Source of the DNA: Henricia sp. BOLD:AAB3569
Lineage: Eukaryota > Echinodermata > Asteroidea > Spinulosida > Echinasteridae
NCBI GenBank assembly: GCA_037783545.1
Contig: JBBELK010001420.1
Span: forward strand, 50,847-114,846
Length of the DNA: 64,000 nt
Reading direction: 5' to 3'
Positions 7,261 to 59,500 of the stretch are shown piece by piece (positions within the stretch are counted from its first letter, which is position 1; the number at the start of each line of letters is the position of its first letter). The translations under genes and the position numbers were made by a program. The notes beneath the pieces were generated by a model. It ran no database searches, was not told the DNA's origin, and saw only the letters and a program-made list of their open reading frames with translations.

Positions 7261-8300
7261 GTGACATCAAAGACATAGTATAAGAGGTGTGCACCCAAGA
7301 ATGGCTTCATTGTGACGTCATCAGTTACGTCATTATAACACTTTAAAAATGCCTAAAAAGCGGAAAATTTCCGAAATATGCACTTTTTAAAATGGTTCCC
7401 TTGCCCAAACCACATGACCCAGGGTTTTCATATTTGGCAAACATTTAGATCAGATCATGAGCTTCAATTTTCTTAGTGTAGGCATTTTCATCTGACCCTT
7501 CCTTCCTGGGTCAATCGAAGGTCAAAGTTCAGCCAATTCAAAAATCACATTTTTTGTATTTGTTTGTACTTATGAAGCAATATTAGCTATTCAACCATGC
7601 TTGATTTTCATAAAACTAGGTACAGGCATGGGCCCCATCACAAACGTCCACCACCATGTAAAACGTCACCATGACGTCAAGGATTACGTAATTATAATAA
7701 TTTTAAAATGGCACAAAAGTGGATTTTTATCATGAAAAGTACCAAAATATGCATTTCGTAAAACGCTTCCCTGTATGAACCCACATGACCCAGGGTCTTC
7801 ATATTTTGCATACATATATATCAGATCATGGGCTACAATGTTCTTCGTGCAGGCATTTTCATCTGACCCTTCCTTCCTGGGTCAATCGAAGGTCAAAGTT
7901 CAGCCATTTCAAAATTCACATTTGTTGTGTTTTTGTGTACTTATGAAGCAATTTTAGCTATTAAAGTACGCTTGATTTTCATAAAACTAGGTACAGGCAT
8001 GGGCCTCATCACAAACTTCCACCACCATGTACAACATCACCATGACGTCAATGATTACGTAATTATAATTATTTAAAAATGGCAAAAAAGTGGATTTTCT
8101 TCATAAAAATTAGCAAAAAATGCATTTCGTAAAATGTTTCCCTCTATAAAACCACATGACCCAGGGTCTTCATAATTAGCAGACATTATAGATCGGATCC
8201 TGCGCTACAATTTGCTTTGTGTAGTCATTTTCATCCGACCCTTCCTTCCTGGGTCAATTGAGAGCCAAAGTTCAGCCAAGTCACAATTTGCGTAAAACCA
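7261..8300 (+). repeat. TGACGTCA repeat family A, tandem monomers
   Basis: About two and a half head-to-tail monomers of roughly 375 bp; for example CTACAATGTTCTTCGTG at about 7,835 and CTACAATTTGCTTTGTG at about 8,210 are homologous. Each monomer carries one TGACGTCA followed by a TTACGTAAT-like site. No coding sequence. Confidence 0.85.
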
Positions 8301-17710: not shown

Positions 17711-18175
17711 AGATAGTATACATGATTGGTAAACTGTTACAAATAGTTTTATCCCCCCGTGTGATTGAAGATATGCATGATTAAAACCAACCTGAGCAAT
17801 AACCAGCTCCGTACTTCGTCTAACGTTTGAGAAAACAGTCAAAAAAGGGTTTGCAGTCATTTCGCCCCAAAACCACTTCGCCCTTAACCATTTCGCCCAA
17901 AACCACGGCCAGTGCACGAAGTGGTTTTGGGGCGAAGTGGTTTGGGGGCGAAATGGCACTTGGGCGAAATGGTTTTGGGGCGAATTGAATTTTCGTCTCA
18001 AGAGACGAAAACTAATTGTTTTGCTCATTTCTCAAAGACTATAGCACTTCAGACAGAACCATTTCAGGGGAAGTTTTCTGCGGTCATCATGTTTATACAT
18101 GTATTGTGTAAGTTAGGCGTAAATCTGTGAACATTTCTGATTTTCGAGATTACCAATGATGTATACTGCCAGCCT
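17711..18175 (+). mobile_element. TTAA-flanked MITE with GGGCGAAATGG boxes (copy 1)
   Basis: TTAA at 17,707-17,710 and 18,176-18,179 flanks ends AGATAGTATACATGATTGGTA and ACCAATGATGTATACTGCCAGCCT. The interior carries alternating GGGCGAAGTGG and GGGCGAAATGG boxes in both orientations (about 17,850-17,990). Other copies: 38,906-39,357, 52,727-53,206 and 58,587-59,010. A TTAA target fits Kolobok or piggyBac-type mobilisation; which one is unknown. Confidence 0.8.
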
Positions 18176-38500: not shown

Positions 38501-41500
38501 AAAATTATATCATTTGGAGCGAAAACCTTTCATTGGATCGTTGCTATTAATTCAATCTTTACTTTCAGAACTAATTTTCCCCTGTAAACTCGTCGATTAC
38601 TATTTGGGGTCATTGCAAATGATACACTGGGCTTTTAACAAGGATATAGAATTAAAGTTAGGTAAAACAAAAAAGCCATGTTACTTTTGCGTAACGTGAG
38701 TAACGCTAAAAAATGCTAGTCTGCTCGTATAACCGTATGGGATTCATTTCAAATTTTCACTTCTATATTTTCACTGATGGTAAGGGGTCACCTCAATGTA
38801 GAAATTAGAAAGTTCTATCCATTCACAGAAAAGTGAAACAACTTCATGTTGTAGGTAAATGGAGTAAATGTAATGTGAGTAATGCTGGAATTGTCCTTAT
38901 TTTAAAGGCAGTATACATGATTGGTATCTCGAAAATCAGAAATGTTCACAGATTTACGCCTAACTTACACAATATAAACATGATGACCGTAGAAAACATC
39001 CCCTGAAATGGTTTTGTCTGAAGTGCTATAGTCTTTGAGAAATGAGTAAAACAATTCATTTCGCCCCAAAACCATTTCGCCCGAGTGCCATTTCGCCCCA
39101 AATTTCTTCGTCCAAACAATATAAACAAAACCACTTCATGCACAGGCCGTGGTTCAGGGCGAAATGGTTCAGGGCGAAGTGGTTTTGGGGCGAAATGACT
39201 GCAAACCCTTTTTTGACTATTTTCTCAAAAGTTAGACTTACATGTAGTACGAACCTGGTTTTTGCTCAGGTTGGTTTTAATCATGCATACATGTATCTTC
39301 AATCACACAGAGGGATAGAACTATTTGTAACAGTTTACCAATCATGTATACTGTCTTTTAAACACCCCTAAACTGTATCAACTCAAATTAATTTTACAGC
39401 CCATTTGTTGTAGATGGTCAAGTATTTTCTTACTTGATTGCTTCTGCAAAGCCATCAGTTCTACGAGGCACAAAGAGGGTTGGGGTGCTCGGCACCTGAC
39501 GATCATCGCCGAAGTCCTCAAAGGGAGCGCCTGCTCCAAGGAACATGGGAGCTCTACCCAAAGTCGCAAGGCGCTGCATTGGCATAGTGCCATGCTGTAA
39601 TGGGGAGGGAAATATGACATGGTTTAAGGGTAGATTCCTGTCATCTGGTTGGTTAAAAATAGGGCTAATCAATGCATAGTTCCGACCTGTCAATCAAGCC
39701 GAACCCGCCGACCAATCACAACAGAGCTAGCAGGCATCGCCCACATAGGTCAAAGTTGATTGCATCACAACACAACAACATACAGTTTGTACGGTGTTGT
39801 ATGCAGTGATCCGGGTGAATGTTTTTGTTTCAAGGCCGGACGATTCGCTGTTCAAAGGTAAGAAAGCATGTACATGTATTTCATGATGATATGACATCCC
39901 TGTATTACTGGCCCTTTACTCCGTGTGTTCTAAGATAACTGTTGACCCTGAAACATGAATACCTTTGAGTTTTCTCCAATGAATCTGTGTTTTCCGTTGA
40001 AAGTCCCATTGGTTTGTGCATGTGTGTGTGGACATTTTGAGAAATAGCGTGTGAGGCATAGCAACAATATCCAAGGGGGCGGGTTAACTGGGCAAACTCG
40101 GAACTATGCATTAGCTTGGCTGGTATTTTAGAATGCCGACTACCAGGGCTGAGTCAATTTGAATAATTTAGAATTCGAATAATCTAACCAATTGTTTGAT
40201 CGAATATCGAATTTTTAATTTTTAATAGCGCTATTTAGTCATGATTTATTTGGTGTAAATTCCCAAATTGGCCTACATGTATGCCGTAGAGTCAATTTTA
40301 ATGCAGTACGATCGATCTAGAAATACAAAAATTAAGTCAACTACATACATTTGGAGCACCATTGAGAAAATACCACTCTTGTAAAAGGGAAAAAAATAAA
40401 AATCTTTTCTCCCCCAATTTACTGATCGACTCATTACTCATCAACATTCTCGAATACATGTATTCAAATACAAAAAACGTTATTCATATAATTGACACAA
40501 CCCTACTGACCATGCCCCAGGCATACATGTACATGTAGTCTTTAGCACATTCCAGTTGCATGTGTCACACGTGTAGCATAACTGTGCTATTTGTGTGTGA
40601 CCTGTCACCACAAAATGAGCTGAAAGTCCGAATGTTCAAAAATTTAGATATTGGTACATGTATTTTAGAATTTAGTAGAAAAAAGAGCTTTCCAATAGTA
40701 TAACACATAAGGTAAAACTATTTCCCCAACACAACACAGCTTGGAGAAGCAGTAGTGTTGAAACAAATTTTACAAATATTCAAACAAAATTTCTTACGAG
40801 GCACGAAGAAAGCTATCGTCAAAATTGGTCTGAAAATGGATTTTTTTAAATTGTTGGATGACGCTAAAAACTTGGAATCAAATAGAATAAGAGTTACTCT
40901 TTCCAAATATTAGAAAACCCTATAAACCCTAATTCTGGCAGCAAACCCCATAGCCTGTGTAGAAAGTGAAAAACAACTTTTTTAAGCCGGTAATTGGACG
41001 TTGAATAGACTTTTTCCCAGTCCATTTGTGCTCTGCAATCCAGGGGCGTGTTCAATAGCACAATACGTACGCCAGTATTGCATACCAAAAACGTTGAACG
41101 CAACCGAACGCACGGTATTCCCAATACGTGTTGCATTCCAACAATCCCAACTCGAACGTGGTACGCTTTACATACCAAGATGCCGGACGGATAAATTGTG
41201 GCTACGGCCTCAGGGTTTCAAGTCAATATTTTGCTTCATAGGAATTCAACATTCAGCGTGTCGAGAAGAATTTCGAAGTGTTTATTCTTCGACTGTGGAA
41301 GACCACTATCGGTTGAGTTAGCAGTTTTGATTTGCAATTTAATTGTCAGAATCTTTGCGTTAAGCGTGCAGCCGTAGTGCTTTGCAAACCACGTTGCCTA
41401 CAGTAGCCATGTTTGATCGTATGTTTTGGGATGCAGTCGTTTCGGTTGCAGCATACCGATACTGCCATACGTATTTCGGTATTGTGCTGTTGAACACGCC

Positions 41501-44500
41501 TCTGGCGTTGCGGCTACACTTCCAGGGTTTGTGAACCAATCGATCCAATTACCAATGCGCCCTTGCCACCTTACCTGGAATGGTACTCTCTCAATCTGCG
41601 TCTCTTGCCCCTGTGTGGTCGCTGGCTGTTCCCCCGGTGGTTCCACCCTCAGTTCCGGCATGACGCGGAGAGGTTGGTGCTCTTCCATTGGTTGTACCTG
41701 CTCCTGCTGTTCACTAGACCCAACCTCCATTTCATTCTCAGGACCTTCCGTCTCTTCATCCTCTGTTTCCCAAAGTTCAGTTTATAGAAACATTATCAGA
41801 TAGTTGGTATCAAAATTTAAAGGTTTTCTCTAGAACGAGGTACTGAGGTGTTTTTTCCTGATTTGGATATTTATAGATAAATTACATGATTGGAAAACTC
41901 TTAAGCCTACCGTACATCGACATTGCAACTGCAAGCAACTCAACGATCAGTTGCTGTCGATGTGTGCGTTGCGCGCACATCGACACAGCAACTCGGTAAA
42001 GCGCAGAGTGCATTGCCCTTGCAACTGGAAGCAGCTGTGCTTGCAGTTGCTGTCGATGTGCGCGCACGTGATCAGATGCACGTGAGCAACTGGCAGCAAC
42101 TAGTTGCAAGTACGCGTACATCCACGCAACTAACCGCAAATGGGTACAACTAGTTGCCAGAAAGTAGAACATAAGCAACTCGCGGCAACTGGGATTTTTT
42201 CAGTTGCCGGTTGTTGCAAGTGCGCGTACATCAACCTTTCTGAGCAACTGATCAGTTGCTCCCAGTTGCCGGAAACACCAGTTGCCACTAGTTGCTTCCA
42301 GTTGCAAGGTCGATGTACGCTATAGGCTTTACCAATGGCATTATCTCCACGTATAATCAAGGTCGAGTATAGCTCATTACCTTATCTACCTCCCGAGAAA
42401 ACAATAAAAACTGTTTCAATGCTTTCAAGAAATTGTTCAAACGGACATGAGTCCAGATTGGGCGATGTCACTAACAATGAAGACTGTCTAATGGCGTCTG
42501 ATCACCGTCAGTGGCTGTAAATCTGCACCCTGCTATTGCCGAGTAAGCCAGTCTATGTCAGCAGTCGCCATCATGGATGTATGCTTTGAACATGCTGGGT
42601 GCGTTCGGGCGTACAGTTCTCGTTACTCGGGAGTATTGCGTGAGCATTGACTCGGGTCACATCACGCGAACGGCAAGTCTGCGTGCCCGAATGGCAATCA
42701 GTGAAGATGGCCGTCTCTTGCCATCACTGCACAAAAAATGCTGTTTCACTGCTCACAAGAAACTGAGGAAAAACAGGCCGTAAGTCGTGAGAACCTTTGA
42801 TGCCGTCCACAACAAACCTTAGTAGTGAGTTGTTGTTTTAGTTATCGAGTTGACACGTTGAGCCAATTCACCAAAAATCCCACCCATATTCCACCATCTT
42901 CGTACAAATCACATGGCACTCGTCAGGAGTAAGAGCACACTCCTCATTTGTTGGGGAGTAGCAAGAGCATACTCTCACTGACCCGAGTGTCGTTATTCTT
43001 GCCGTTCGCGCGCGCAGGAGTATACTCGTGTTAACACAAGTACACGCCTGAATGCAGCCGCTGTGTCACACAAGTTAACATGTGTAATTTCCTTTGAAGA
43101 AATATTGCGGTTATAACAGTGTTTTTACACAATTTCTGACGTTGCGAGGGCCACTATAGTATGTTGACTGTGATGAGATTTTCATTTTAACATGAAAAAG
43201 AACTTGGTTAGAGATTCTGTTTGGAGCTGTGAACAGGACGGGACTGAAAATCTCTCAACCTGAAAGTATTGCATGATGAGCACCCCATTAAAATGAGCAG
43301 TACTTTATTGTCCGTGGTTCTCAGCAAATTCAATTTTTGTTGTCTCTCCAAACGAAGTTTTAAAGCATTTACTTTATTTAACGAAAAAACATCATACTTT
43401 GTATTTTAGACATTGACAACCCTGTGAAAAACGCCGTTTTTATACGGCCATTTTTTGCGCCTGAGCCAGACTTCCCCAAGTCTTACTTTCCATGTTTGGT
43501 CTGTGTGCGCAGCGTGCGGCGCACCCTCTGGGCTGGTGGCCCGTCTGATCTCTATTATTCCGTCTCGGAAGAAAGAAAACAGGTTGGACAGGCTGCTGGT
43601 TCGGGGGATGCTTTGCGCTGCGCATTGTGGGACGGGCACGGAAGGTCGGACTTGGGCAAGTCTATGCCTTGCCGAGAGTTGAATTATTGGCCGACCACCA
43701 ATAATTGAAAATATTTACAGTAATTGTTCGATAACTAAATGTTAGTCATTTTTTTTTTTTTGATGTCTCATTTGAAAGCGAATAACCTTTATTTTTCTCG
43801 AAAAATATCACTTCAAGAAAAAAAAATTTTTTTTTTGAGGTGTCACACCCAAAACACGCAGACACTATGGCCCGAATATACAAAAAGTTGATCATCGCAC
43901 GTTGAAATAACACGTGGGCAAGCGATAAACGCGTGCAACGTGCGGCTTAACCACGTGTGGCTAAACACCCGTGATTACCATTTATTACAAAGACAGAAAA
44001 TCAAGTGATTTTTTTGTCCGCTTGTAACTTGGGCGTTAGTAACATTCGGGTACTTTATTACTATTGTGCATAGCCTGGTGGCGTCGATGTGTCTATTGGC
44101 ATTTGAATCTGGCCGACGTAGTGCACGCAAGAAGCAAACATGTCTGGAAAGAAGTGTTCTGATAGTTATACACCAGATAAGAGGATGGCATTGATAAATT
44201 TGCTCAAATTCAAGTGCCATTGAAGATAAGAGAAGGATTCTTTGAAAATTTGATACCGTTTTAAGAATTCTGTATTTGTATAATCTTCTACCGGATGTGT
44301 CTTGTCCCATGAAAACTCATCTAACATCCTAGCACTTGCGCCTTCCAGCTTCCTGTGCAACTTCGAGCACCATCAAAGCATCCATTGTGACCAAGCAGTA
44401 CGGCTATCCGCTTGGAAATGCCAATTCGCTGGCAGAGTGTGACGTCAATTTCCGCGCGGACGGCTCACTTCTTTGCGACGGTTCACGCTACTTGCATGGC

Positions 44501-47500
44501 AACGCGTTTCTCCATTCGTTTTGCAACGGAGCCACAAAGGGAACATTTTCTGTTTAGTTTTTCTGTTACGAACACCACAAAATAAGGCGGTATGGTAGCG
44601 TATCGCTATGAGAGTAGGTATGAGCAAACCATTGCAAGTCATTATGGTCCTTATTTTTTAATATTTTCTTCTAAAAGAAAAATAGTAAAAAACACTGTGA
44701 GCAAACACAATGGATGTAAAACGTGAGCGTGAACCAGTAACCATAGTTACAGTCCAGTGCCCGCAATGTAATGTCACGACTCTGCCAGCGAATAACAGGC
44801 GAGTTAAACTACCCCAAACAGACTGGATTGTCATTTGCACTGAGGTGTCTAATTTTTTGACCTCCAATTGACCCCAGAAGGGTCAGATGAAAACGCCAAC
44901 ACAAAGAAAATTGTAGCCCATGATCTGATCTATAAGCCTGCCAAATACGAAGATCCTAAATTATGAGGTTTTCGAAACGGAAGCATTTTAAAACATGCAT
45001 ATTTTTGTTATTTTTGGGGGTCATTTTATACCTCATGACGTCACAGTGACGTCAAGCTTGAGGTGTCTAGCTTCTTGCCCCGAGTTACATGTGTGTAACA
45101 TAATCAGGTTTCGTAATTCGATGACTATTTATCAACACATAATTATCGTGATTATGAATGCGATTATGAAAAAACAACACCTTTCGTAAATTTGGGCCTA
45201 CATCTTTAAGTTATCTGGAAGTACCCACCACTGATTTCTACTACGTCATCATCATCCTCCATAACCTGGTCAGGTCTATCATCTCGACGGTCCCCAACAC
45301 TCCCTGCTCCTTCTAGCTGTTCCTCCATGGACACAGCATCTTCATCCGCTGCTGGATCATCATCATCATCCATGGACTCATCGATGTCATCATCATCACC
45401 ATCTTCACCCTCATCATCATCCTGATAAACAAAACCAGTGAGTGGGGCATTGCAAAATAACATGAAATATCAAATTCATGCCTTGTAAAGCCTAGCGTAC
45501 ATCGACATTGCAACTGGAAGCAACTCAACTGATCAGTTGCTGTCGATGTGTGCATAGCGCGCAAATCGACAAAAACTGATTAGTTCTACAACTTGCGGCA
45601 ACTGGGAGCATCCAGCTATATCTACATTTCCAGAGCGCGCACATCGACACAGCAACTCGGTAAAGCACAGAGTGCATTGCCCTTGCAACTGTGCTTGCAG
45701 TTGCCGTCAATGTGCGCGCACGTAATCAGATGCACGCGAGCAACTGGCAGCAACTAGTTGCAAGTACGCGTACATCGACGCAACTGACTGCAACTGGGTA
45801 CAACTAGTTGCCAGAAAGTAGAACATGAGCAACTCGCGGCAACTAGGATTTTTCCAGTTGCCAGTAGTTGCAAGTGCGCGTATATCGACCTTTTTAAGCA
45901 ACTGATTAGTTGCTCCCAGTTGCTGCGAGTTGCTTCCAGTTGCCGAAAACACCAGTTGGCACTAATTGCTTCCAGTTGCAATGTCGATGTACGCTAGTCT
46001 TAACAGGCTGCTCTGCATAAACTGTGTGTGTTAGGCATTACTTAGCTTATGTGCACTCACATTCTGGTATGATTGTTTTAAAGGGGTCATTCCATGAAAA
46101 CGGGACACAGTGTCTCCCTTACGTCATGACACTTTTGGAATTGATTTTGTATAATTAACGGCATATAACTAATATATATGACCTCGTGAATCGAACACCA
46201 CGTTAATCTGTTGATACTACCCAAAACATACCCTATCCCATGGGATACTCCCCAGCAAACCCCTCATCCTACTACTTGGTACCCAAGATGTCTACCTACC
46301 CCATACTCTATCCCACTGGATACTCCCCAGCAAACCCCTCATCCTAGTACTTAGTACCCAAGATGTCTACCTACCCCATACCCTATCCCACTGGATACTC
46401 CCCAGCAAACCCCTCATCCTAGTACTTAGTACCCAAGATGTCTACCTACCCCATACACTATCCCACTGGATACTCCCCAGCAAACCCCTCATCCTAGTAC
46501 TTAGTACCCAATATGTCTACCTACCCCCATACTCTATCCCACTGGATACTCCACAGCAAACCCCCTTATCCTAGTACTTAGTACCCAAGATGTCTACCTA
46601 CCCCATACTCTATCCCACTGGATACTCCCCAGCAAACCCCTCATCCTAGTACTTAGTACCCAAGATGTCTACCTACCCCATACCCTATCCCACTGGATAC
46701 TCCCCAGCAAACCCCTCATCCTAGTACTTAGTACCCAATATGTCTACCTACCCCCATACTCTATCCCACTGGATACTCCACAGCAAACCCCTCATCCTAG
46801 TACTTAGTACCCAAGATGTCTACCTACCCCATACTCTATCCCACTGGATACTCCCCAGCAAACCCCTCATCCTAGTACTTAGTACCCAAGATGTCTACCT
46901 ACCCCCATACTCTATCCCACTGGATACTCCCCAGCAAACCCCTCATCCTAGTACTTAGTACCCAAGATGTCTACCTACCCCATACTCTATCCCACTGGAT
47001 ACTCCCCAGCAAACCCCTCATCCTAGTACTTAGTACCCAAGATGTCTACCTACCCCATACCCTATCCCACTGGATACTCCTCAGCAAACCCCTCATCCTA
47101 GTACTTAGTACCCAAGATGTCTACCTACCCCATACTCTATCCCACTGGATACTCCCCAGCAAACCCCTCATCCTAGTACTTAGTACCCAAGATGTCTACC
47201 TACCCCATACCCTATCCCACTGGATACTCCCCAGCAAACCCCTCATCCTAGTACTTAGTACCCAAGATGTCTACCTACCCCATACACTATCCCACTGGAT
47301 ACTCCCCAGCAAACCCCTCATCCTAGTACTTAGTACCCAAGATGTCTACCTACCCCATACACTATCCCACTGGATACTCCCCAGCAAACCCCTCATCCTA
47401 GTACTTAATACCCAATATGTCTACCTACCCCATACCCTATCCCACTGGATACTCCCCAGCAAACCCCTCATCCTAGTACTTAGTACCCAAGATGTCTACC

Positions 47501-50500
47501 TACCCCATACCCTATCCCACTGGATACTCCTCAGCAAACCCCTCATCCTAGTACTTAGTACCCAAGATGTCTACCTACCCCATACCCTATCCCACTGGAT
47601 ACTCCCAGCAAACCCCTCATCCTAGTACTTAGTACCCAAGATGTCTACCTACCCCATACTCTATCCCACTGGATACTCCCCAGCAAACCCCTCATCCTAG
47701 TACTTAGTACCCAATATGTCTACCTACCCCCATACTCTATCCCACTGGATACTCCACAGCAAACCCCTCATCCTAGTACTTAGTACCCAAGATGTCTACC
47801 TACCCCATACTCTATCCCACTGGATACTCCCCAGCAAACCCCTCATCCTAGTACTTAGTACCCAAGATGTCTACCTACCCCCATACTCTATCCCACTGGA
47901 TACTCCCCAGCAAACCCCTCATCCTAGTACTTAGTACCCAAGATGTCTACCTACCCCATACACTATCCCGCTGGATACTCCCGAGCAAACCCCTCATCCT
48001 AGTACTTAATACCCAAGATGTCTACCTACCCCATACCCTATCCCACTGGATACTCCCCAGCAAACCCCTCATCCTAGTACTTAGTACCCAAGATGTCTAC
48101 CTACCCCATACTCTATCCCACTGGATACTCCCCAGCAAACCCCTCATCCTAGTACTTAGTACCCAAGATGTCTACCTACCCCATACCCTATCCCACTGGA
48201 TACTCCTCAGCAAACCCCTCATCCTAGTACTTAGTACCCAAGATGTCTACCTACCCCATACTCTATCCCACTGGATACTCCCCAGCAAACCCCTCATCCT
48301 AGTACTTAGTACCCAAGATGTCTACCTACCCCATACCCTATCCCACTGGATACTCCCCAGCAAACCCCTCATCCTTGTACTTAGTACCCAAGATGTCTAC
48401 CTACCCCATACACTATCCCACTGGATACTCCCCAGCAAACCCCTCATCCTAGTACTTAGTACCCAAGATGTCTACCTACCCCATACACTATCCCACTGGA
48501 TACTCCCCAGCAAACCCCTCATCCTAGTACTTAATACCCAAGATGTCTACCTACCCCATACCCTATCCCACTGGATACTCCCCAGCAAACCCCTCATCCT
48601 AGTACTTAGTACCCAAGATGTCTACCTACCCCATACCCTATCCCACTGGATACTCCTCAGCAAACCCCTCATCCTAGTACTTAGTACCCAAGATGTCTAC
48701 CTACCCCATACCCTATCCCACTGGATACTCCCAGCAAACCCCTCATCCTAGTACTTAGTACCCAAGATGTCTACCTACCCCATACTCTATCCCACTGGAT
48801 ACTCCCCAGCAAACCCCTCATCCTAGTACTTAGTACCCAAGATGTCTACCTACCCCATACCCTATCCCACTGGATACTCCCAGCAAACCCCTCATCCTAG
48901 TACTTAGTACCCAAGATGTCTACCTACCCCATACTCTATCCCACTGGATACTCCCCAGCAAACCCCTCATCCTTGTACTTAGTACCCAAGATGTCTACCT
49001 ACCCCATACCCTATCCAAATGGATACTCCCCAGCAAACCCCTCATCCTACTACTTAGTACCCAAGATGCCTACCCCATACTCTATCCCACTGGATACTCC
49101 CAGCAAACCCCTCATCCTAGTACTTAGTACCCAAGATGTCTACCTACCCCATACTCTATCCCACTGGATACTCCCCAGCAAACCCCTCATCCTAGTACTT
49201 AGTATCCAAGATGTCTACCTACCCCATACTCTATCCCACTGGATACTCCACAGCAAACCCCTCATCCTAGTACTTAGTACCCAAGATGTCTACCTACCCC
49301 ATAATCTATCTCTCCTTCCACTGGATACTCCTCAGCAAACTCCTCATCTTCATAATCCTCTGCATCCACATCTCCTTCATCGTCGACCACCTCATCGTCT
49401 TGTGACTGCTCATCCTCAGGCAAATCCTCCTGTCAATTTGATATTGAATAATAATAATAATAGCAAGTTCTTATATAGCGCATTCCATGTCTGTCGACAT
49501 CTCAATGCGCTTTACAAGTACCTAGAAACTGCCTAAACATCGAGATACATAGGCGTGTGGCGCCTTCGGCTGCCGAGCCAGAAACACCGGGGAGAATCCC
49601 CTTCTCTTTACGAATGAATGCTCTGGGATCTTTTAAGTGCGTTACACAACACACTGGACCAACGGCTTTACATCCCTTCCGAAGGATGGAGCAAGTGTGT
49701 TTAAGTGCCTTGCTCAAGGGCACAGGCACCGCAGCCGGGGATCGAACCCGCAACCCAAGGTTTTCACCCGAATAATGCGAGTCAGTGACCTAAACCGCTC
49801 GGCCACGGTACCTCAATTGAAGGGACTCTGTGTCACCATATGTGCATGCATACATGTAGTTAAATCTAGAACGCAGTGAATGCACAACATAGCAAAACGA
49901 CAAGCTAATTTTTGTGAGTTTTTCTTGTTTACACAAAAACACATTTATGAAGGGATTATATTAAAAGTAGGTTAGGATAGTCTTATACAATCCGTTTTAA
50001 ACCGGCTAGGGTCCTCTGCGCTGATAAAAATGATGTTTATGGTGTTTTTGCGTCACTCGTGCTGCATTTCGCTGTAGCTCTGTGCACAAAATGTTGAGGA
50101 CTCGGGTAACCAAAATGGAGATCCACTTTTTGGTAACCTCAACTCGAGGCTGTGATTGGTCAATTCCAAAATGGGCGGAGCTTACTGGATCGGTCTATTA
50201 TGGTTAAGTGCCTTGCTCAAGGCCACAAGAACCATGGCTGAGTGTTGAACCTGCAACACCAAGTTTTCAGCAACCCAAACCACTCGGCCAATTATGCTTG
50301 AATGAGTCATGCGATGGCGAACTTACATCATCACTGTCTACAACAATAACCACATCGTCGTCGTCGTCGTCATCATCCTCCTCTTCACTGCCTTGCTCCT
50401 CAAGCCCCGCCTCCCCAGTCTGCACCTCGAGCCCGCCCTCACTGCTGGTAGGCATGTCCTCAGGCGCGCTCTCAGTGGGGACAGCAAACTCAACAGTGGC

Positions 50501-53500
50501 CTCTGATAGGGCTTCTCCTTGCGTCGTCTCTGGTTCACTAGGAGAGGAGGCCACTCGTGTCCCAGTGCCGGCCTCATCTTCGCCTGAAGCAGAGGCAGTG
50601 TCAGCGGGTGTTTGGGGGTCCACTAATGACGGCAGGTCGGGTTCTTCCAAAGGTTGCTGCTGTAGAAGAAAAACATAGAAAAACATGTTTAAGACTAAGA
50701 CAACACAAATTAGTCTTGAGATCAAAGCTTATCTTAACAACTAGGATTCATCGTTTGGGTATTGCATATCGCATTCAATCTTGGCCATCCCTTATAATAC
50801 TTTAGTAATGCAGGCTTAGGTGTACCTTTCAACTGTCCTGTTGTCCTAAAAGCATTATTTTTTTATTCGAAGTGGCACAGTTTGCCATATTTTAGATGTC
50901 AAACGTCAATCAATGTAATGTCACCAGGCAGCCGTCCAAGGGTCGAAATTAGCACTGGTCTTGTCGTCCGAGACCAGTAAAAAATCAGAAGGACCACCAG
51001 ATCTGTCAAAAATGCTGGTCCGATGGACCAGTGAAAACATTTCCTGACTCATGGAAACATTCCCCGATGCCTAATCAACAGTAAACATTTCTTACTCAAT
51101 GCAAACATTTCCTGGTAAAACCACAAACAATTCCTGATCGCTTCAGACATTTTCAGATACATGTAACTACATTTCTTTCTCCGATCTCTTAAGACATGCC
51201 CTAGTGTTGGATCAAAAAGCAATCCCATCACTGACTGACCTTAAACCAGAAAGTGTTTCATATATCTCAGTACCATTATATCTCGGTACCATATAAAATG
51301 AAACCTTACTTGTTTTGTAAGATTTCTGCAAATTTTTGTCCATTTGGTATTTAAAAAAACTTCAATTAATTTCCAACGCTTACAAAGTTTGCATACGCTT
51401 TTGTAACTGCACGCATTGCACACAAGAGCAATCCATTAGGGAGGTTTAGATGCACGTAAAACGCAAACGTGAACGCGAAATGCTTTGAGCAATTGGTTGT
51501 TACTATGAGGAAATCTTAGAACAGACAAAAACAAAAATCCACAAAATAATGTGACTTTCTTGGCAAGATATCTCTTTTGCTGTGACCAAAATTCAAACCT
51601 GGGTTCTAGGACCTCCTACACTACCCATCAAAACTATGGAAACACTTTGGAAGTTTTAGATTTTTGAGAAGGAAGTATTATTCTGTTTATTAATAATAAA
51701 CCAAGTTATTAAAGCAAACGGAGGTGTAAGGGGTATCTGGAGAGAAAGCAGTCATCTGGAGTGCTGTCCATCATGGAATGGCCTGCCCAGTCACCTAATC
51801 TCAATCCCATTGAGCTGCTCCGAGTTGGATCGAAGGTCAAATGCCCAACCAGCGAAGAAAACCTCTGGAGTCTTAAAAGAGGCGTATTTCCACTGAATGT
51901 TTGGAGAAACTGACAATCAGGATGCAGAGATTGTGTGTAGCTGTCATAGCTGCTAAGGGGGGATTGTTTGATAAACATCAAGTTTAGCCGTTTCTTTTTG
52001 CATGCTCTCCAATTTGTTAATAAAGCCCGCTGCTGAGGCCGAAGATGGCACTAAAATTAACATGTATATATTCCTTTTTGTTAGAATACACCTACATTTG
52101 CTTTCCCAAAATTAACATTACATTTTCTTCTCAAAAACCTGACAATTTCAAGGTGTTTCCAAAGTTTTGATGGGTAGTATAAATATATGACCAATGCTCA
52201 AGCCATTTCGTGTCTGCATTTGTGTTTTCATTTTACGAACATAAACTAAACCTCCCTATTCACTCGATGCATGAGCGCGCATACGCGCTTGCTTTGGTGC
52301 AGATCGGGGCTCTGTGCTGCACAGTATCAGAAATGCACGTTATCCGCAAAAGCTTCATTTTAAATCATAATATAAGTTTCTGAATGTTTTAGCATACCGG
52401 TTGAGGGGTAACTCGCTGTCGTTTCTCAGCATGAGCCAACTCTTCGGTTGGAGTAGTTTCATCATCGTCACCTGACTCGTCACGCTGGCGTTTATTGCTC
52501 TGCTCTGGTCGAATTTCACTGGACGACGGTTTTCGTTCTTGAGCCAATTCTGACAATAAAAATGGGTAAGGAAAGTTCAAATTGACCTACTTCGAGAGGA
52601 GACATCAAAGCATTATTAGTCCCACCTGACATGTGATATTGTCACAACTTGAAAATGACTATAAAAATAAGCTGCTTTGGGCTGTTTGTTTTTTAAAAAT
52701 ATGAAATACCCCATTGTGGTGTTTAAAGGCAGTATACATCATTGGTATCTCGAAAATCAGAAATGTTCACAGATTTACGCCCAACTTACACAATATAAAC
52801 ATGATGACCGTAGAAAACTTCCCCTAAAATGGTTTTGTCTAAAGTGTTATAGTCTTTGAGAAATTAATATTAAAAACAATGAGACAAAAATTCCAGTGCC
52901 ATTTCGCCCCAAACCACTTCGCCCGAGTGCCATTTCGCCACAAATTACTTTGTCCAAACACTACATCGCCCAAATGCCACTTCGCCCCAAAACCACTTCG
53001 TGCACAGGCCGTGGTTCAGGGCGAAATGGTTCAGGGCAAAGTGGTTTTGGGGCGAAATGACTGCAAACCCTTTTTTGACTGTTTTCTCAAAAGTTAGACG
53101 AAGTTTAGAGCTGGTTTTTGCTCAGGTTGGTTTTAATCATATATATCTTCAATCACACAGGGAGATAAAACTATTTGTAACAGTTTACCAATCATGTATA
53201 CTATCTTTAATAGTGAATTACAATGTTGTACATAGTACTCGAGTCCAAGACCAACTCGGCCCCCATTGCATTGTGTACACACAAGTTAAAAATAAAAATG
53301 CTGGCGCCCCTCAGGAGCCAGTGGCTCCTTATTTTATTTTTCTCCGTACAGCGTTACGTGATTATGTACATGTATGTACACAGCCCCACCAGGCCGGCAA
53401 GGAGCGCACGAGCACGTCATAATTTCACATATTGTGTAAACGAAACTCAGATTCAGTTTCACTAATTTGGCAAACTCATGACTCGGACTCAATGAAAGTG

Positions 53501-56500
53501 ACTTGTGACTTGGACTCGGACCTAATGACTCGAGACTCAGACTCGAGGATAGTGACTCGAGACTCGGACTCGATTTTGGTGACTCGACTACAACACTGGT
53601 GAATTACTAATTGAAATAGTTGGAGTTATTTTTTCAGTAAAAGGGGGACATCGTCAATTAGGAAGACATTGAAGTGTCTCCCTAACTATTTTTTTCTACC
53701 AGTCAGAAGCGTTATTTCAAATTTTCCAGAAAAGTGTTTTTAGATATATGTCTAATTAAGAAAAATTGAAATTTCAGCTTTAGGGGAAGATAAATTAGGT
53801 GACAGTAAAGGTTTGTACACAAGTCTATGGGAGACACAGATCCTGAACTACAGAATTCTCTCAAAAATGGAAAATATCACAATTCATTATTCTGTTTAAA
53901 CAAGTCCACTTGGACCTAGCCTTTGTTAAGGCCTCACAGCTTGGTGAGTCGCGCGCCAGAACAAGAGCGCCACCATGCGACGAGGACGGGACGAGCAGCG
54001 CCAGCTGTGAGGCCTTTGCTGACCCGGAATTTTGCTACCTGAGAGGTAGCAAAATGCTAATGATCGTATGACACAGTGTGCGTGTTGCGTTGAATAGCTA
54101 ACAATGCGAGCCAATCAGGTTCGCGCGCACCGGTTTGTAATCACGCGCGTGCGTTTCACATACAACGCGCGCGCGCCAACACAAACATACATTCGCAGCA
54201 CAACAACGCAGGGATGAATAATGTAACAGGGGCTGTAATACATTAATAAATAATTTTTCCGGGACAGCAAAGGCCTCACAGCTGACGCTGCTCGTCCCGT
54301 CCTCGTCGCAGGGTGGCGCTCTCGTTCTGGTGCACGACTCACCCAGCTGTGAGGCCTTAACAGAGGCTAACTTGGACCTGTAGGAAAATCACTGAAGCAG
54401 AACTGTAATAAAAGCTATTCCAAAGTGTTTTTTTTATCAACAAGTTCTCTGTATTCAACAAACGTCTATTCTGGTCAAGAATTGATATTTTAAGAAATTA
54501 ATATTTTAAGATTATCTTCAAGCAACGTTTTCCCACCAGTATTTATGTAGACCGTTCCGAATAGCTGCCATCTTGTAGGAACAACTTTTGTCATTTAAAT
54601 TGGTCAACAATGTAAGCACAGAATGTGCAACCATGCCATACCTGCCAACATTGCAGAGTGAAAAAATTGGACTGTAGTGAAACTTGCAACGGTCGAGTTG
54701 GTACAACGGTCAAGTTGACCTAGTACTGCACCCGTTTTTGTGTACACAACACATGCGGCATGCGCGGGGAGTTAGGTCAAGTCGACCGTTCCGATTTTCA
54801 ACACTTTTAACACTTAAAAATAGGAACAAATTCGATAAAATCTGACTAGTTAGCAGGCATGCCATACATGTCTTCAAGGAACAAAAAAACCGCCCTACAA
54901 GATGGCAGGTATTCGATACTGTCTACTGCTTACCTGTTGACTCATCTTCAAACTGCTCATTTTCAGCCGTTTGCGAGGCCAACTCGTCCTCCGGCTGCAC
55001 TTCTGGTTCCAACATGGACTCCGTCGCTGGTTCCTCCCGATGTTCCACGACCGGTTCTTCATCTGGTTCCTCATCCGGTTCCACAATGGCTTCTGCCGTT
55101 TGAGTAACCCTCGGTTCAGCTCTAACCTCTTGCACATTGTCCGGTCTGGAAACCTCCTGCTGTTGTATGGGCTCTAGTCGTTCATCCTGTGGTCCTTCTG
55201 CTCTAGAGTCTGGCATTTGGTGTGGATAGTGCGATGATGGAGTGGTAGGCGGAGCTTGTTGGGTTGGAGTGACAGCCTGGATGGGAGTGGCTGAAGGCAA
55301 TGACAGGACGATGGGTGTTTCCACTGAGAGAGGTTCTTGAACTGTAGTAACAAGAAAGCTCCATTATCAGGGAATTTCCAATTTGCAAAGCGACGTAACA
55401 ATACCCCGAGGAAACACACGCAAATCTGTGGAGTGAGCCGGCTGTTGTCTTGAGCCAACTCACGCCCGAGTCATTTTGATGTAATTTAATCAATTCGGTC
55501 ATGTTATGCCGAAAAGAAACGATTTCTATACTTTCCAGAAATTGTATTGGGTTCCGTTCCTTATGACTGTCCCATTCCTACCAAACTTTCAAAAGACGAT
55601 CTTAATTTACTCCGCAGTTTTTCAAATTAATAACAGGGATGCATGCTGACGAATGTAATGGAACGGATTCCCCAGTATGCTTTAAATAGCAGCCAATCGC
55701 CGACGCGGACAACGGCCAGCATTACCGAGTACATGTATCACATGCATGCACGGTGTTTACAATCTGCGCGAGTTACATTTGAATGCCTGCAATCATGCTG
55801 CAATGCACTGCCAAGCGTCCTGATTGGTCCAGCAGAGGCTCACAGGTACCCATTTTACTTCTGGGTGGAGAGAAGCAATGCGTGGCAAAGTACCTTGCTC
55901 AAGGGTACATGCACCATGGATGGACCGGACCGGGATTCAAACCCACTACCTTTGGAACTAACCCAGGTTTTGAATACAATCCACTAGACCGCTCCGCCAC
56001 AGCACTCCACATGCATTACTCTGGAGTAACGAGAACTGTACGCTCGAACACACCCCAAGATTACCACCACTCACCCTGTTGTCTGTCGGTTTCCATGACA
56101 ACCGTGCTAGCTTCACTCTGTGTCTGTGGCATAACGGTTGCCATGGGCGTTGCCGATGAGCTTGATAACGCGCTGGTCACCGGAGTGACGGCGATGGGTC
56201 GTACGCTGGCCGTCATTCTCTGGCCGGACGGTGTTGACGATTTGGACACGGTCGTAGCCGGGGATGAGATGGGTTTGATGTTGGCTGTTGGGGGCGGCTC
56301 CTCGCTTCTGGTACTGTATGGTTTCAGAAAATTACCTTTTACTTTAAAGGTCCAGTGTATCATTTGCAATGACCCCAAAAAGTAATCGACGAGTTTACAG
56401 GGAAAAAGTAAAGATTGAATTAATAGCAACTACCCAAAAAAAGGTTTCTGCTCAAAATGATATAATTTTACCAGAAAATAATCTGTAAAGATGAAATTAT

Positions 56501-59500
56501 TTAGATCGTTTGCAAACAATTTACTTAGTTTGGTTCGCATCTACGCGGTCCAAAATGCGTAAGCGCTGTGTACTGCGTGTGCGTGTAGATGATGTGCGTC
56601 ACAGAGTGCATGACGCAAGCCACATAGTACCCGATCAACTGAGAACGAATATATATTTGAAACACCCCGCCAAGACCAGGAAAACACATATGGATTTTAA
56701 TGGTTTTTTTAAAACGTGGTACATTTGACAAAGCTGAAATTTCTTCGGATGAATTTGTTGATGTCTTTCTTTTGATTTATAATGGTTTTATTCGCAGAAT
56801 CGCTCAAAAACAGATCATCTACAGGGCCTTTAAAGGCCCAGTGTATCATTTGCAATTACCCCAAAAATAATCGAAGAGTTTACAGGGGAAAGTTCTGAAA
56901 GTAAAGATTGAATTAATAGCAACTACCCAATGAAAGGTTTCCGCTCAAAATGATATAATTTTACCAGAAAATAATCCGTAAAGATGAAATTATTTAGATC
57001 GTTTGCAAACGATTTACTTATTTTTGGTCCGCATCTACGCGGTCCAAAATGCATGGGCGCTGTGTACTCCGTGTGCGTGTTCCAACGCGATGCATTCTTA
57101 TGGATCGCTCGCGCACGCAGTTTATGATGTGCGCCACAGAGTGCATGACGCAAGCCACATAGTACCCGATCAACTGAGAACGAATATTTGAAACACCCCG
57201 CCAAGACCAGGAAAACGCATATGGATGTTCATTTTTTTTTAAACGCGGTACATTTGACAAAGCTGAAATTTCTTCGGATGAGTTTGTTGATGTCTTTCTT
57301 TTGATTTATAATGGTTTTATTCGCAGAATCGCTCAAAAACAGATCATCTACAGAGCCTTTAAAGTTTGTATTATGCCCCACCTTGGCCGTTCAGCACCCA
57401 TCGGCTGTTGAGGGGCAAGATGCTTTACTTGTAACTGCTTCTGCTGTTCCTCAACTTGTCTCTCCAATTCCTGAACCTTTGAGAATAAAACAGTAATACA
57501 CAAGAATGGGACTCATCATTCAAAATACACACGGCGAAAACATTATACAAATAATGAATGTTTATGAGTTCAATGGCACAAATATTTTCATGAGTTGAAA
57601 GATAGAATCTTCAATTCAACGAGACGGAGCCGAGTTGAATGGAATAATTCCATCTTTCAACAAATGAAAAATATTTGTTCCATTGAACGAATAAAAAACA
57701 TTCATAATTTGTTTTATATACTGAAACGCAAAAGAAACTTACCACTTGTTTAAACCTTTAAATAGCAACAATAACACTGCGTGTAGTAATGTGTGAACTT
57801 ATTTGTGGACAATAGTGTCCTCACTGTCAGACCAAATGGTGTCTGAAGGTCACTTGAACCTTTAATGGTCACTTCATGGCACAGCTGTTGAACAGCTGTT
57901 TTGACCGTCAGTGATTAGCCAAGGGGTATGGGATGATTGTAATGAGCTGCAGGTGATGTCTTGATGTTGGCTTTAAAAAGGCCAGTGCAAAATGGGCATT
58001 TCAAGCAACATGCCACGATTGTCGGGGGATCAAAGACTGGTAGGCAGTATGCGCCGACGATGCACTGCCTGTATTCAAATCAATGGTGGCCACACACGCT
58101 ATTGAAAGGGGACTGACATTGCACACTCTTCTGTTCATTACTGTAGAACAAACTGATGAAATGGTGTATCTTGGTCAAAAACTTGACATGTCATCAATAA
58201 AATGCCAATGTTTCAATTAGCAATTGTTGGTTTGTTTTATTTTGAACTGTTACAATTTCATTACATTTTAAACAAGTGGTAAGTTTCTTTTGCGTTTCAG
58301 TATATAATGCCCAAAGAGATCTTTGTCATTTGATTGGAGAACATCTGATAGCCTGAGATTATGAAAAAAGTACTTAAGACACTAGTCTCTGACATTCCTC
58401 GCATCACAATGACCGAATCCGACTCATCTATCACACGTGCGTCTTACGCAAATGCGTCTGATTCAGCATCGTGTAATGTCACATGTGTAAACGAACATGC
58501 ACTTGCAGTAAAAAAATGCATACAGTATCTGTGCTGTGCAATGAAAACAGGCGCGCCGTGCAATGGAAAAATCGTATGGAACATACAGATAGTATACATG
58601 ATTGGTAAACTGTTACAAATAGTTTTATCCCCCTGTGTGATTGAAGATATGCATGATTAAAACCAACCTGAGCAAAAACCAGCTCCGTACTTCGTCTAAC
58701 TTTTCAGAAAACAGTTTGAAAAAGGGTTTGCAGTCATTTCGCCCCAAAACCACTGGTTTTGGGGCGAAGTAGCATTTCAGCGATGTTGTGTTTGGACGAA
58801 GTGATTTGGGGCGAAATGGAACGCGGGCGAAGTGGTTTTGGGGCGAATTGAATTTGTGTCTCATGAGACGAAAACTAATTGTTTTACTCATTTCTCAAAG
58901 ACTATAGCACTTCAGACAAAACCATTTCGGGGAAAGTTTTCTACGGTCATCATGTTTATATTGTGTAAGTTAGGCGTAAATCTGTGAACATTTCTGTATG
59001 TATACTGCCTTTAAATGGTTAAATTATTTAACGCCATGTAACCAATTATCGTCCAATCAAATGATCTACTTGGGCGTTATATAATTAAATAATAAAATAA
59101 TAATAAAAAAAAAAAACAATGAATCTTTTCTAACATCTTCATTGCTTCAATGTTGTTTGATATGACCTCAAAGCTAGGATCAAAGATCATATGTTAACCA
59201 AAAGTTGTCGTTTCCACAACAATGCTGGTTTATCTTAGGGCGGGTTCCCACTGCACTATTTTCATCCGTCAGACGAACGTAAAATCGAAGTACGTCGTCT
59301 CCGGTCCGTTGATACATTTTCAATGTGAACCGTCCAAAGATCAGCTTCATTTACGTACGTCGAGTAGAAAAATCAATGTATCCGAAGGTTTCATACGTCA
59401 AATTGACAGATGAAGAGTTGATCCCGAAGTCTACTTGTCCGTCGGATTTTCATCCGTAGCGTCGGTTCTACGTACAACAGTGCAATCAAAATACATCCAA

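Follow-up and report, generated by a model that had tools for sequence, protein, structure and literature searches.

An intronic minisatellite in a sea star TPR gene whose units match the adjoining exon end and its splice donor

The closest precedent for the locus described here is IFI6 (6-16, G1P3), in which a splice-donor minisatellite was reportedly described by Turri et al. in 1995. The IFI6 minisatellite has a unit of 12 bp. In human IFI6 two downstream repeat donors are used, giving three mRNA species, according to a published account (PMC4526556). We describe an array of 75-bp units in the TPR gene of the sea star Henricia sp. BOLD:AAB3569, located in a 64,000-nucleotide stretch of DNA (assembly GCA_037783545.1, contig JBBELK010001420.1, positions 50,847 to 114,846 of the forward strand; hereafter the window). 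Like the IFI6 repeat, as far as that account describes it, the TPR array lies within a transcript and its repeat units offer splice donors; it differs from that short-unit repeat in having a 75-bp unit, in the 44 nt of exon tail that the unit contains, and in strong decoy donors that are predicted to truncate the protein. From the sequence comparisons reported below, we consider it highly probable that an exon junction was duplicated and then expanded to a 41-unit intronic array with decoy donors.

Introns carrying repeats of exon sequence are also reported for rainbow trout irak3, where the intron immediately preceding exon 5 carries four repeats of that exon's first 15–17 nt, and exon 7 is repeated in intron 7 (PMC6763605). 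In this respect irak3 resembles the TPR array, but what is repeated there is either an acceptor-side segment in low copy number or an entire exon flanked by its two splice sites, whereas the TPR array involves the donor side and 41 copies. Tandem duplications that created introns, in vertebrate ATP2A1, in fission yeast (24-bp repeats) and in potato RdRp (PMC4974935), are likewise duplications of coding sequence with splice signals; unlike them, the TPR piece has a donor, stops before the acceptor, and would have lengthened an old intron. Intron minisatellites occur in the sparid fish GH and MSTN-2 genes, and the accessible text on these repeats does not mention exon sequence or donor content, unlike the TPR unit (PMC3045353). 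A literature search for exon-spanning or exon-derived minisatellites, covering accessible portions of open-licence papers, found no other such donor array. The TPR case stands apart from these in its copy number, in how much of the unit derives from the exon, in its place on the donor side, and in decoys that are all predicted to truncate the protein.

Tandem Repeats Finder (TRF) reports one large array at 46227–49310, with a period of 75 bp, 41.1 copies and 96% matches, and with its head-to-tail units within the range of about 10–100 bp, many copies and high identity it is a minisatellite. We split it into units at the point where exon homology starts, which gives an 82-nt source segment borne by the exon, followed by 41 units, 40 of which are 70–77 nt long and the last of which is truncated.

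46227..49310, minus strand: 75-bp minisatellite of 41 units (TRF bounds), 39 units with the exact donor 9-mer GGGGTAGGT
49298..49429, minus strand: TPR exon F (the earlier note's exon 9), 132 nt, 44 codons, acidic C-terminal region
49298..49348, minus strand: exon part of the source segment, 51 nt, of which 7 nt are absent from every unit
49267..49297, minus strand: intron part of the source segment, 31 nt, the real donor GTAGGT and 25 more nt
46219..46268, minus strand: last unit, truncated and degenerate, at the far array end, without a GTAGGT donor

An earlier note, made from the sequence alone, had proposed that the unit is composed of an exon end, its donor and the start of the intron, that the match is unbroken from the exon into the first unit, and that amplification of a segment spanning the exon/intron boundary explains the array. 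The composition and the unbroken match are borne out, and the amplification is supported. A local alignment between the last 51 nt of exon F and 44 nt of the unit consensus has three substitutions and one 7-nt gap and scores 62, compared with a mean of 17.1 and a maximum of 35 among 1000 dinucleotide shuffles, and the first 31 nt of the intron, donor included, are identical to the unit consensus at all 31 positions; exon F runs into the first unit without a break, the join being seen in the unit alignment. The measurements needed some adjustment: the exon match is real homology but is 51 nt by alignment and not 53, the extra bases in the exon, given as 6–7, are exactly 7, and the amplification, given as about 41-fold, does comprise 41 units but with the last one truncated. 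Alignment of the units to the exon, a check that the note had suggested, shows the 7-nt gap to be common to all 41 units, together with two fixed substitutions; at the third site of difference 33 units have a G, four have a T, and four keep the exon's A. We do not make use of the contrast in divergence between the exon part of the source (three substitutions and one indel) and the intron part (none), as the numbers are too small to argue from. An RNA fold of two units has a z-score of −2.2.

The gene carrying the array is the nucleoporin gene TPR, on the minus strand, in agreement with the earlier identification. A protein search with the joined exon translation returned ten proteins at E ≤ 0.001 among the 8000 best candidates scored, all ten of them named TPR, and the three top matches are from sea stars: Acanthaster planci (E = 1.4e-169), Patiria miniata and Asterias rubens, with identities over the joined exons of 63.9%, 66.0% and 60.1% respectively. 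In a tblastn search (E < 1) the Acanthaster TPR gives 15 matches in order, from 63056 to 20505 on the minus strand, and matches six of the eight exons A–H, again in order; exons E and G, which are also acidic, have no tblastn match to it. Exons C to H form a continuous open reading frame across exon F, which is phase 0 at both ends, with the acceptor ttgacag and the donor GGG/gtaggt. Exon F was placed from its order, its phase and the YPVEG motif and is in register with the sea star TPR proteins; the VVIVVDSD-like end of exon E also aligns with the sea stars.

50327..50659, minus strand: TPR exon E, which precedes F and ends DSDD; position assigned from frame, phase and splice signals
45229..45421, minus strand: TPR exon G, next downstream of F, acceptor tttatcag; position assigned from frame, phase and splice signals
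45422..49297, minus strand: intron F–G, 3876 nt, made up of the array (first 3079 nt) and 797 nt beyond it

Judged by its Acanthaster orthologue, exon F encodes the region around residue 2100 in a protein some 2500 residues long, and residues 1–1540 of the Acanthaster protein have no listed tblastn match in the window; exon F is thus a TPR exon, as had been proposed, but probably not number 9. A Pfam search with six exon frames found no family above cut-off, a PDB search using only exon A produced no useful match, and Rfam at the gathering threshold found no families.

The units each carry a donor like the exon's own, as in an IFI6-type repeat, in 39 of 41 cases: the 9-mer GGG/GTAGGT is exact in these, and therefore occurs 39 times in the intron besides the real donor, with 34 of the copies also matching the real donor's next 12 nt. 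When scored with a weight matrix, the real donor (6.82) is sixth of the eight TPR donors scored, and 40 sites in the array score at least as well, 39 of which are the same 9-mer. The predicted product from all 40 has the same truncated protein end, VGRHLGY. The TAG noted previously in the units is indeed in the exon's frame, but read-through meets a TAA first, as the eighth codon past the donor.

As a test for acceptors we used the pyrimidine share before each AG on the array's sense strand, where the best share among 350 AGs is 0.56 and none is at or above 0.75. The real TPR acceptors checked have shares of 0.81 (E), 0.69 (G), 0.69 (C), 0.50 (F) and 0.38 (H), four of the five being below 0.75, and the test is coarse because two of them, F and H, score below 0.56. 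We considered the units as cryptic microexons and judged this unlikely, the sense strand being G-rich with no AG above 0.56 in the coarse test, and the 44-nt consensus part not being a multiple of three and having a stop in the exon's frame. It seems unlikely that the units act as exons, and the splicing outcome would then turn mainly on selection of the first donor. Recursive splice sites (TAG/GTAGAC) were considered from sequence only and set aside. The opposite (+) strand is C-rich at 46227–49297, with 37 of 152 AGs having a pyrimidine share of at least 0.75, so that antisense transcripts would meet acceptor-like sites; the long + strand frames over the array (up to 299 aa) are a by-product of the 75-nt unit.

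A comparison of the exon tail with the units reveals a further difference. The exon tail contains eight GAR (purine-rich) hexamers and no run of four G, whereas 36 of the 41 units have no GAR hexamer and the other five have one, and the exon-like part of each unit has one to three runs of at least four G; the array as a whole holds 211 G-runs of three or more. Three of the four common exon–unit differences remove a GAR motif, with two of the three creating a G-run as well; the fourth, a T to G change, has no bearing on GAR loss. In a simulation devised after seeing the alignment, random changes of equal size left no GAR hexamer in 0.9% of 200000 trials. Loss of GAR motifs and gain of G-runs may provide a way to tell the true donor from the decoys.

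It could be argued that the minisatellite came first and that the 3′ end of the exon was recruited from its outermost unit, as there is no break between exon and array and the intron start is identical to the unit consensus. However, EYPVEG...YG is invariant across the TPR of the window, Acanthaster, Patiria and Asterias, in register with exon F, and on this conservation the exon tail predates the split of these four sea stars. The 7 nt absent from all of the units lie in the codons for EGE, whose E and G do not vary among the four sea stars; weaker support comes from the wider echinoderm and acorn worm alignment, in which register is uncertain in the acidic sequence, with EGD in register in both sea urchins and one of the two crinoids aligned. 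Because the exon holds 7 nt of conserved codons that are in no unit, the present-day unit cannot simply have produced the exon, and the consensus unit moreover has a stop in the exon's frame. We therefore regard recruitment of the exon end from the array as very improbable, and the direction from exon to array, which had earlier been inferred, is now well supported by sea star protein conservation and the seven exon-only nucleotides. The simplest history would be that the exon end was duplicated once together with its donor and the start of the intron, that an early copy lost 7 nt, and that expansion followed. That the array or its length has been misassembled is barely any more probable. A repeated block of about 1.1 kb could reflect assembly trouble. 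Unit variants recur in similar order, for example in units 8–22 and 23–35, with two extra units in the first block. Taken by itself, an ungapped run of four identical units, the longest present, is not significant, being reached in 112 of 2000 shuffles; a gapped self-alignment of unit order, chosen after the ungapped-run test failed, scores 28.5 against a shuffle mean of 9.4 and maximum of 20.3 (none of 500 reach it). Against misassembly, the distinct unit variants stand in a structured order and the end units are the most changed: changes outside the six shared variable columns are in units 1, 3, 4, 12, 18, 37, 40 and 41, mostly near the ends, although those of unit 41 are largely its truncation. 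The difference between exon and units would also not be expected from misassembly. The unit order appears to fit block duplication with homogenisation by unequal exchange.

A further proposal, compatible with duplication and expansion of the exon junction although we think it improbable, is that the array is a functional switch, either through decoy use confined to certain tissues or conditions that would yield unproductive mRNA targeted for nonsense-mediated decay and so tune the level of TPR, or through U1 sites and G-runs that aid splicing; in a variant of this, the repeated U1 sites and G-runs would protect the intron from early polyadenylation. The retention of the exact donor 9-mer in nearly all units, the common early stop and the abundance of G-runs agree with such a role, but the donors would stay intact simply through homogenisation and recent expansion, and the donor score of the real site and its copies is only moderate. 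We give slightly more credence, while still considering it doubtful, to the suggestion that the exon-derived half of the unit has been selected to read as intron, such that 39 identical donors could be tolerated. Several observations weigh against the history that we favor. EGD is absent from the other crinoid, the sea cucumber and the acorn worm in the wider alignment; exon F is weak in tblastn alone (E = 0.007), because its sequence is acidic and of low complexity; a GT within the 797 nt past the array outscores the real donor (8.81); the case against acceptors in the array is weak; and the GAR loss may be neutral.

Under the duplication and expansion that we favor, a tandem duplication in a sea star would have placed, just behind the original, a copy of the final 51 nt of a TPR exon together with 31 nt of intron that include the donor. 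An early copy would have lost 7 nt and gained substitutions, seen now as the fixed differences, and would then have expanded to 41 units, partly by duplication of many-unit blocks, as the repeated unit order suggests, and probably with unequal exchange. As this copy carried a 5′ splice site but did not extend to the intron's acceptor, most likely no new exon or intron was made, and the array would be part of an intron that carries 39 decoys with the same donor sequence as the real site. The first donor, at 49298, is most likely the one used in splicing, perhaps helped, as in exon definition, by features of the exon: its acceptor, its small size, and an enhancer-like, purine-rich tail, in place of which the units have G-runs. 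Use of any decoy is predicted to give the same premature stop, so that selection may have kept the exon distinct from the units.

Other repeats are present in the window. Just upstream of exon F in the transcript sense, at 49450–49815, the sequence resembles, by eye, a tRNA-derived short interspersed element or a similar short repeat; ARAGORN found no tRNA. Short arrays of 15–16 bp (CATTTCGCCC.. and its complement) are at 17858–17984, 39057–39197, 52893–53059 and 58754–58856, and those at 39073–39197 form an inverted repeat with 41-nt arms that are 71% complementary, perhaps part of a mobile element. In the flanks of exon B, 56342–56373 has matches of 30–32 nt at about 93% to 38609–38638 and 56828–56859, and 56017–56055 has a 39-nt match at 90% to 42597–42635; repeated elements thus seem to lie close to exon B. 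TRF also reports a tandem repeat at 7407–8283 with a 371-bp unit, 2.4 copies and 87% matches.

The TPR array would represent the birth of a minisatellite at an exon–intron junction with its source identified, source and copies lying side by side. Should the exon-derived half of the unit prove to have been selected to read as intron, the locus would be a natural test that context, and not donor sequence, decides 5′ splice-site choice, and array length might tune unproductive TPR splicing. With the real donor and 39 copies of the same 9-mer in one natural intron, 5′ splice-site choice is directly testable here, and the array suggests a way in which introns may lengthen without a change in the mRNA.
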